Shown: positions 7,038 through 9,242 of the stretch, one piece after another | How positions within the stretch are numbered: position 1 is the first letter of the stretch | Layout of the letters: every line of letters starts with the position of its first letter | NCBI GenBank assembly: GCA_030019105.1 | Contig: JASEGY010000093.1 | Span: forward strand, 1-10,510 | Direction of reading: 5' to 3' | Origin: a bacterium | GTDB lineage: Bacteria > UBA9089 > JASEGY01 | DNA length: 10,510 bases | Position numbers and translations under genes: made by a program | The notes under the pieces: model-generated | Databases searched by the model: none | Seen by the model: the letters and a program-made list of their open reading frames with translations, nothing else | What the model was told of the DNA's origin: nothing

Positions 7038-8021
7038 ATGAAAAAGGCGTTAGTTACTGGTATAACCGGCCAGGATGGTTCATACCTGGCTGAATTTCTT
7101 TTAAAGAAAGGCTATGAAGTGCATGGGATTGTCAGGAGGGCCAGTTCTTTTAACCGGGGGAGAATCGATCATACTTATCTGCATCCGGATTATTACGAAT
7201 CCCGTTACAAACTCTTCTATGGTGACCTCAATGATGCCAGTTCATTAAACACAATCCTCAGGGTGAGCCAACCGGATGAAATCTATAATTTAGGGGCGCA
7301 GAGTCACGTCCGGGTCAGCTTTGATGTCCCGGAGTATACTGGTGAGGTGGTTGCCCTGGGGACACTCAGGCTTCTTGAAGCCATCAGGGAAGCAAATATA
7401 AACCCCAAATTCTATCAGGCCTCAAGTAGTGAACTCTTTGGTCAGGTGGCTGAGATACCCCAAAAGGAAACCACCCCTTTTTATCCCAGGAGTCCTTATG
7501 CCTGTGCCAAGGCTTATGCCTATTATATTACCCGTAACTATCGAGAAAGCTATAACTTTTTTGCCTGTAACGGGATACTGTTTAACCACGAATCTCCCCG
7601 GCGGGGTGAGACCTTTGTTACCAAAAAGATCACTATGGGCGTGGCCAGGATAAAATTGGGATTACAGGAGAAGCTTTTTATGGGAAACCTGGAGGCCAAA
7701 CGGGATTGGGGTTATGCCCCTGACTATGTGGAGGCCATGTGGTTGATGCTTCAACAGGAAGAGCCGGATGATTATGTGATTGCTACCGGTGAGACCCATT
7801 CGGTTAAGGAGTTTCTTGAAGAGACCTTTGGGTATGTGGATTTAGATTGGCATGATTATGTGGAGATTGATCCAATATACTTTCGACCGACCGAGGTGGA
7901 CATTTTGGTGGGTGACGCCACTAAGGCCAGAAAGAAGCTGGGTTGGCAGCCGAAGGTTACCTTTAAGGAATTAGCCAGGATAATGGTCGAAGCTGATCTG
8001 GAATTGGTAAAAAAGCAATAA
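7038..8021 (+). CDS. gmd: GDP-mannose 4,6-dehydratase
   Basis: This 327-residue extended short-chain dehydrogenase converts GDP-D-mannose to GDP-4-keto-6-deoxy-D-mannose, with NADP(H) retained in the active site. Seen are the dinucleotide-binding GITGQDG (G8, G11, G14), [13 protein letters not shown] (33-45) near the NADP phosphate site, [10 protein letters not shown] with S131 and E132, the catalytic pair Y154 and K158 in [27 protein letters not shown] for GDP-mannose binding, and [22 protein letters not shown] near the C-terminus. All expected catalytic residues are present, and the length is within the family range. GAGGAGG lies 9 bases before the ATG. It is the last gene of the operon and supplies the aminotransferase just upstream. 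The same intermediate could also feed GDP-fucose or GDP-rhamnose, but no reductase for those is in the window. Confidence 0.97.
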
Positions 8022-8059
8022 CCTGCACTAAGGCTAAAGCGCGAAGGGCTCTGCTTTGA

Positions 8060-8092
8060 AGAAACCAGGTTTCTTCAAGAAACCTGGTTTCT
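8060..8092. repeat. Perfect 15-bp stem-loop after gmd, possible terminator
   Basis: Positions 8060-8074 and 8078-8092 are perfect reverse complements separated by a 3-base loop (tca); each arm reads AGAAACC-x-GGTTTCT. It starts 38 bases after the gmd stop and could end the operon transcript, but no T-run follows, so intrinsic termination is uncertain. Short palindromes of this form also occur as dispersed repeats in other bacteria. Confidence 0.6.
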
Positions 8093-8210
8093 GGTCACGC
8101 GGGAGAGGTTTTGGGATAGGCTCTAAGTATACAATCCTTGCGGGCAAACAAGTACGGGGTGAGAAGAGGAAATGCAACGAAGATACATTCTTGTGGGCAT
8201 AATTATTTTA

Positions 8211-8406
8211 TTGGGGTATCTGCTTGACACCCCCAACGATTTGGTGTAAAATAGTCCTCCCCTGGGGATCTTCACGCTCGCGCGGGAAACTCTTTTTTCG
8301 CCTGGTACAACAAGCGGTAGCCATAGGCCCGACACCACGCAGTGCTCTTTGTGGTAGACACAGAACGTCATAAAACCCGGGTGGGGGTGTCAAGCGGATA
8401 CCCCAA
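8211..8406. mobile_element. 196-bp MITE-like element with 8-bp target duplication
   Basis: The 25-base terminal inverted repeats at 8211-8235 and 8382-8406 match at 24 of 25 bases; each starts TTGGGGTATC at its outer end. An exact 8-base direct repeat, TTATTTTA, abuts both ends (8203-8210 and 8407-8414), as expected for a target-site duplication. The element encodes no transposase or other convincing protein, so it would need to be mobilised in trans. Its body is more GC-rich than its AT-rich flanks. Several insertion-sequence families make 8-bp duplications; the terminal repeat alone does not let me name one. Confidence 0.85.
8224..8252 (+). promoter_or_regulatory. Near-consensus sigma-70 promoter at left end of the element
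   Basis: A perfect TTGACA (8224-8229) lies 17 bases before TAAAAT (8247-8252, 5 of 6 consensus). The -35 box is inside the left terminal repeat, and the promoter points inward. A transcript would start near 8259 and read through the element toward the palindromes and the glycosyltransferase fragment. The mirror copy of TTGACA in the right terminal repeat has no good -10 at the right distance. Confidence 0.55.
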
Positions 8407-8437
8407 TTATTTTATTATTAACACTCACCATTCGCTT

Positions 8438-8642
8438 AATAAAATTAGAGTTTTGTTAATTTCTAATCATATACGAACCAGGCAGTTATGGAGACATCCT
8501 TGTGTAGCTATCGCAACCTATCAGACAAGGAATTATGAAAATGATTATCGTTATCCTGAACGTCAATACGAGGCAATCCGGTCCCTCTTAACTATTCTTA
8601 GCAATTTTCGATCCAGGGGTCTTGAAAATAAACTTTTAGTCA
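8438..8642. other. Unassigned stretch between the two elements
   Basis: No gene is supported here. A frame on the plus strand stays open from before 8438 into the second element, but it has no start signal and crosses element boundaries. A tiny frame at 8535-8591 (18 residues, MKMIIVILNVNTRQSGPS) has AAGGA just upstream, which may be chance or a decayed start. The stretch probably contains decayed coding sequence of the broken membrane glycosyltransferase. Confidence 0.3.
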
Positions 8643-8815
8643 CAGAGATTTCCAAAGTAGGTTCCAGAAGGGCAAAATTGGCCTTTTGATTTCTGGACAC
8701 TTTCCGGAATGTATAGGCTGACTTGGCCAGTGTGCTCTGGAATGCGCTCACCACAAAGTGTCCAGGAATCAAAGAAGGCAAAAACACCCCTTTTGAGGCA
8801 CTTTGGAAATCTCTG
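8643..8815. mobile_element. 173-bp palindromic MITE-like element with 5-bp target duplication
   Basis: The ends 8643-8658 and 8800-8815 are perfect 16-base inverted repeats starting CAGAGATTTC. A second inner pair, 8685-8703 and 8755-8773, matches at 18 of 19 bases. The arms are equal in length (61 bases each) around a 51-base centre. The pentamer AGTCA abuts both ends (8638-8642 and 8816-8820), consistent with a 5-bp target duplication. There is no coding capacity. The RNA would fold into a long interrupted hairpin, and the one inner mismatch would be a U-G pair on the plus strand. Confidence 0.7.
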
Positions 8816-8840
8816 AGTCAAAAAATAAAGCGAATGGTGA

Positions 8841-9230
8841 GTTTTTTTGGTAATATTTTTATTAATAACAGGAAGGGTTTTATCTCAGACAAAAGACCTT
8901 TTCACCAAAAAGATAACTTCATCCTGGGAGGATTCGACCAGGCGGATATCCAAAGTGTGCCGTACCCTTGAGATAAAAGAGGGGCCTATCATTGTGGTCA
9001 ATGGTATTCCGGATCTCTATTCGTATTTTTTAGAAGACGTACCCGTTATCACGGGAAATTTGGATTCAACGGTTCTGGATAAACTGGTTAAAAAATACGA
9101 GGCAAAGTATTTAATTGTCACTTTTGAAAAAGACGAGGAAATTGGTCCGGTATACGTTGGAGAAAGGGAGTTATCTCCGACAAAGATTATCGAGGGCCAG
9201 GAATTTAAGACAATAAGCTTTGATCTCTAA
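8841..9230 (+). pseudogene. C-terminal fragment of a membrane glycosyltransferase (GT39-like)
   Basis: The frame is open from 8841 and ends at TAA 9228-9230, with no credible start (only a TTG at 8847 without a ribosome binding site). It begins with a hydrophobic stretch, VIFLLITGRVL, like a last membrane helix. This is followed by a soluble tail with EGPIIVVNGIPDLYSYFLED and LVKKYEAKYLIVTFEK. The tail resembles the periplasmic C-terminus of GT39/ArnT-type transferases, where a segment about sugar-site strands is followed by a Lys-Tyr-x-x-Lys-Tyr-Leu-Ile-Val-type strand. Full-length family members have about 450-600 residues, so most of the gene is missing. Upstream, KIKRMVSFF in a different frame meets this frame at a run of seven T (8842-8848), suggesting a one-base frameshift. 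The fragment is probably not expressed as a working protein. Confidence 0.6.
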
Positions 9231-9242
9231 GGACGCTTACGA

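Follow-up and report, generated by a model that had tools for sequence, protein, structure and literature searches.

A 196-bp MITE-like element with a remnant of an IS1595-family transposase gene in a sparsely sampled phylum of bacteria

Introduction

Among the described systems that come closest to the element analysed here is one from the archaeon Haloquadratum walsbyi. Its ISHwa6 MITE belongs to the IS1595 family, and an excerpt of PMC3852290 gives its length as 165 bp and those of its inverted and direct repeats as 25 and 8. Target duplications of 8 bp are given as usual for IS1595 members in an excerpt of PMC8101967, and part of PMC12561309 describes ISApl4 as making 8-bp repeats, preferably A/T-rich ones. 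Here we describe a miniature element within a 10,510-nucleotide stretch of a bacterial contig (the window), compare its ends and its coding remnant with IS1595 elements, and consider how it may have arisen.

Results

The element spans 8211-8406 (196 bp), and its 25-bp inverted ends are identical at 24 of 25 positions (Table 1). Two matches to a 22-base pattern of the ends, allowing at most 3 mismatches, lie in the window, and none appeared in 200 dinucleotide-preserving shuffles. At 56%, the G+C content of the 192-bp core exceeds that of its two flanks (49% and 40%). An earlier note on this DNA had reported the terminal repeats together with exact abutting copies of TTATTTTA, which we confirm; its reading of a 196-bp non-autonomous MITE-like element is also supported, and is now tied to the IS1595 family by the ends and by a C-terminal transposase remnant. 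Promoter-like sites number 3 between 8000 and 8900, compared with 1.4 expected, and the one that begins within the left inverted repeat is a candidate promoter by its match to the consensus.

Table 1. Positions of the parts of the element and of the adjoining MITEs in the window
Feature	Position	Strand or location	Remarks
Left target-site duplication TTATTTTA	8203-8210		exact copy at 8407-8414
Left terminal inverted repeat TTGGGGTATCTGCTTGACACCCCCA	8211-8235	+	24/25 against right end; 5' relative to transposase remnant
Right terminal inverted repeat	8382-8406	-	TTGGGGTATCCGCTTGACACCCCCA on - strand
Right target-site duplication TTATTTTA	8407-8414		exact copy of left
12-bp direct repeat AATTATTTTATT, left copy	8201-8212		identical to 8405-8416; contains 8-bp duplication
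12-bp direct repeat AATTATTTTATT, right copy	8405-8416		identical to 8201-8212
Promoter-like site TTGACA-17-TAAAAT	8224-8252	+	11/12 consensus bases; first hexamer within inverted repeat
Putative internal-deletion junction, approximate	8253-8271	+	placed from recognisable C-terminal codons, which start at 8272
IS1595-family transposase gene, 3'-end remnant	8272-8373	+	33 codons + stop at 8371-8373
MITE R	8424-8841	right flank	ends CTCACCATTCGCTTAAT; 239 bp in three whole copies elsewhere
MITE M3	8643-8815	nested in R	173 bp; ends CAGAGATTTCCAAAGT; AGTCA duplication at 8638-8642 and 8816-8820

The plus strand from 8257 to 8370 translates to LPWGSSRSRGKLFFRLVQQAVAIGPTPRSALCGRHRTS, followed by a stop codon. 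Two HMMs were built from the terminal blocks of a second IS1595 subgroup (120 listed proteins, of 8000 scored, and a Methylocella protein). The residues encoded at 8272-8364 match the C-terminal HMM with an E-value of 4.1e-11 (38.0 bits), while the best of 1000 shuffled elements reached 10.7 bits; among 756 peptides, the remnant was the sole match above the inclusion threshold. Its best pairwise match is identical at 19 of 31 residues. Independently of this HMM, a tblastn search of plasmids with the 38 residues encoded at 8257-8370 returned five records with E-values from 0.01 to 0.5, each weak alone. Three are annotated as IS1595 family transposase, two of these being near-identical Methylocella plasmids, and the remaining two have no gene named there. 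HMMs from a first IS1595 subgroup had given weak matches, in the C-terminal case to the minus-strand peptide (E 0.69) and in the N-terminal case to a peptide from genome G226 (E 0.059); both were superseded by the second subgroup. Pfam and NCBIfam searches with the short remnant gave no match, the catalytic domain (DDE_Tnp_IS1595) being missing from the element. Only the C-terminal end of the transposase survives, and it matches the C-terminus of the family. The N-terminal part, site of the zinc-finger domain Zn_Tnp_IS1595, is missing too; to our knowledge, this domain is absent within the IS1595 family only in the IS1016 group. With high confidence we assign the parent to the IS1595 family and regard the element as a MITE-like internal-deletion derivative that kept both ends. 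An intact parent bearing precisely these ends (TTGGGGTATCYGCTTGACACCCC) was not recovered.

The ends lead to the same family. An annotated Methylocella IS1595 element has ends AACGGGTATCCCCTTCAC and AATGGGTATCCCCTTCAC, abutted by an exact 8-bp duplication (TTGGCCTA) in the same register, and the right end of the window element is identical to each of its ends at 17 of 23 positions. Two of the three loci fetched from the tblastn records, on Polaromonas and Sinomonas plasmids, showed no convincing paired ends. We further inspected the best 80 of 99 confirmed IS1595 loci in IMG/VR. The core TATCYRCTTGAC (at most 3 mismatches) lies on at least one side in 62 of the 80; paired ends like N6-TATCCGCTTGAC, with the same tolerance in the core, flank five and are absent from the other 75. 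When the flanks were shuffled in 20 rounds, the mean was 0.2 pairs and the maximum 1. Three of the five paired loci (L164, L193 and L198, the last two sharing ends) carry an exact 8-bp duplication. A scan of the same 80 loci for any pair of ends yielded three with an exact duplication of 4 bp, three with one of 8 bp, and none with any other length from 5 to 12. An inverted-end scan of PF12762 loci in relatives of G226 (16 of 145 genomes) found none alike, which says little as the frame was wrong for several of them.

The body of the element has no second copy in the 61 genomes searched, comprising the window's own and 60 others, 18 of them from the host phylum. Fifty-nine of the 60 gave no match; the single match, in G055, lies inside a 449-residue coding frame, which we take to be that of RNase R, and was discarded as chance. 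The ends do recur, so that the earlier note's proposed search for further copies failed for the body and succeeded for elements with the same ends. The exact end pattern was found in 16 stretches of genome contigs, six of them in the metagenome-assembled genome DeMMO4_10 and each of these no more than about 120 bases from the end of a contig; the other ten have no second end within the stretch and were set aside as chance. A longer pattern gave no match over the genome contigs. Allowing at most 3 mismatches, three of 192 genomes scanned contain ends: DeMMO4_10 (G061, the same as G014), which belongs to the host phylum, with seven ends of at least two element types; G226, with five; and G066 (the same as G001), of the window's own genus, with a single complete element, about 150 bp long. 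In G061 and G226, every end is found close to the end of a contig, about 120 bases away at most.

One left end in G226 runs into MEDYPRSQTELEDRFGTEAA, an IS1595 N-terminus and the sole match above the inclusion threshold to the N-terminal HMM among the 756 peptides (E 3.1e-5). One of the six left/right contig pairs of G226 shares an 8-mer flank (TTGGTTTA), which on the left side is displaced by one base from perfect register, and none of ten flank pairs in G061 shares an 8-mer. The ends of the congeneric element (L068) are GGGGTATCTGCTTGACTCC; among 19 genomes it was found only in G066/G001, and by eye its flanks hold no in-register duplication.

A short element of DeMMO4_10 (L049), the type to which three of the seven ends there belong while the others continue differently, is among the closest counterparts. 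Like the window element it has GGGGTATCTACTTGACACCCCCC ends and a promoter-like leader and has lost its middle, but it measures about 120 bp and keeps N-terminal rather than C-terminal codons, reading by eye MEDYPNL and then a stop. The likeness of the 5' leader between the window and this genome is weak, with 68 of 2000 shuffles as good. Three further loci in DeMMO4_10 (L044, L054 and L057) share these ends and form another, longer type of element, whose interior, ATCTGAAGTGTTTTTTCTTTAACC, by eye resembles the DNA beside two insertions (TCTGAAGTGTTCTTTGACAAA and a near copy).

Several other searches returned chance matches. Across 386 genomes including G226, the four single matches outside G226 were chance-like, with about 4 expected by our own arithmetic, and short matches in Microvirga and Caballeronia were likewise discarded. 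Phage and plasmid DNA gave short matches only; the viral pattern matches L042, L043 and L078 were discarded as chance, and further viral sequence scans for the end pattern gave no match.

The length of the target duplication calls for some care. Because the TT/AA of the element ends also match the flanks, exact direct repetition extends over 12 bp, a fact overlooked in the earlier note's figure of 8 bp; taken by itself, the window would allow a duplication shorter than that repeat or one of all 12 bp. Register with the relatives nevertheless favours 8 bp, as the note had it. In the IS1595 elements whose 8-bp duplications are exact, TATC is preceded by six bases, as it is in the window when this is read in the same register, with TTATTTTA adjoining TTGGGGTATCYGCTTGAC. 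It is also possible to draw the ends as GGGG...CCCC at 8213-8404, giving an element of 192 bp and, from a transposase that makes long duplications, a 12-bp duplication AATTATTTTATT that takes in the whole exact repeat. We consider this very unlikely, both for the six bases just described and because the bases immediately outside GGGG are near-constant in G061 and G226 (TA before six of seven ends and ACT before all five, respectively) though the sites differ. Since sites differ within a genome, such constant bases seem to belong to the ends.

The predicted fold of the element is strong (z -5.19), and together with the promoter-like site this might suggest a regulatory hairpin or small RNA gene of the host, flanked by repeats through chance. 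The likelihood of this is close to nil: the outer stem of the predicted fold is formed by the inverted ends themselves, an Rfam search of the element gave no family at the gathering score, and neither the target duplication, nor the transposase remnant, nor the IS1595-type ends would be expected. Least credible, to the point of being negligible, is an ISL3-family derivative, a reading taken from the minus-strand frame at 8275-8367, in which RAYGYR is similar to a motif at the C-terminus of ISL3 (PF01610) frames, while Pfam and NCBIfam give no match for that peptide, the plus-strand frame over the same bases matches IS1595 with the E-value given above, and the element ends resemble IS1595 ends. 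PF01610 was found in 11 of 41 genomes and not in the window's genome, and an ISL3 parent was dropped after the plus-strand match to IS1595. As a separate observation, genomes of the same phylum contain short C-terminal fragments of ISL3 transposases (L016, L026, L032 and L036 of G003, and others), some of them mid-contig, which may be another set of deletion derivatives.

The IS1595 derivative lies among other repeats. MITE R, in its right flank, has four further copies fetched from the window's genome (C608, C930, C553 and C1052), one of them without its left end. All four are without M3 and so represent the empty site of that nested element. M3 has matches in the window's genome (C84, C131, C87, C202, C775 and C358) and one in a congeneric genome. 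Of the six copies fetched, four have both flanks readable and carry exact 5-bp duplications (GGTTA, ACTCT, AGCCA and CTTCA); L136 is truncated where its contig stops, and in L133 the left flank is masked except for three bases, which do not fit a duplication. Elsewhere in the window, a palindromic repeat (CCAGGTTTCTTCAAGAAACCTGG...) occupies positions 8016-8129 and recurs many times in both the window's genome and the congeneric one. Minus-strand frames close to either end of the contig (109-375 and 10416-10508) share the translated string WFGCGRRPRY, which suggests a dispersed repeat.

An active partner transposase somewhere in the genome, as the earlier note expected, gained no support. The window's own assembly (4.34 Mb, 1053 contigs, 95.33% complete) contains no second copy of the element, no other end with at most 3 mismatches and no match to PF12762 (IS1595); in six distinct genomes, the only PF12762 match was in G005 and below the cut-off. 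In so fragmented an assembly a missing partner is weak evidence of absence and no demonstration of it, since insertion sequences present in many copies commonly drop out. The ends in G061 and G226, crowded against contig ends, have the look of multi-copy sequences in short-read assemblies, which again makes a missing transposase weak evidence. No empty site emerged for the element: a joined-flank probe, compared with 12 fetched stretches, aligned to neighbouring repeats and not across the junction with both flanks, and a search of 21 genome entries with 7800-9240 showed none. In its anatomy the element resembles a MITE, being short (196 bp), with inverted ends and a target duplication, and without a transposase gene of its own beyond the 33-codon remnant. 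Several copies would be expected of a MITE, and the window's assembly, a weak test given its fragmentation, holds one; for this reason we call the element MITE-like.

Discussion

The ends and the retained codons point to the following as the most likely course of events. An IS1595-family insertion sequence would have lost its middle while keeping both terminal inverted repeats, the 5' leader with its promoter-like site, and the last 33 transposase codons with their stop. An IS1595-family transposase would then have acted in trans on the ends of the miniature element, inserting it in an A+T-rich region downstream of the gene that ends at 8021 and creating the 8-bp duplication TTATTTTA. As to timing, the exact duplication and near-identical ends would be compatible with the recent movement proposed in the earlier note, although we only infer it from them.

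At present the element is probably inert cargo. A function for the host is conceivable, in which the end-borne promoter would drive an inward transcript and the hairpin and the transposase-tail frame would act on IS1595 or on neighbouring genes; we regard retention by the host on such grounds as extremely doubtful.

The importance of these observations is modest. They record miniature elements of IS1595 derivation in a bacterial phylum that has been sampled sparsely, and they illustrate how the parent family of a solitary element can be recognized from a remnant of 33 codons together with the register of its ends. The adjoining nested MITEs, in turn, give an order of insertion within a single intergenic region.

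Among full-length elements, the IS1595 element of Methylocella tundrae plasmid p1 (L222) shares with the window element GGGTATC-type ends, an exact 8-bp duplication and a related C-terminal peptide. It differs in having 1022 bp between its duplications and a whole annotated transposase gene. The ISHwa6 MITE, compared here by family, size, repeat lengths and copy number, is given seven copies in an excerpt of PMC3852290, whereas the window element is single, measures 196 bp and retains part of a transposase gene. Since a 165-bp IS1595 MITE with 25-bp and 8-bp repeats appears in that excerpt, IS1595-derived MITEs are a kind already in print, to which the window element adds another member.
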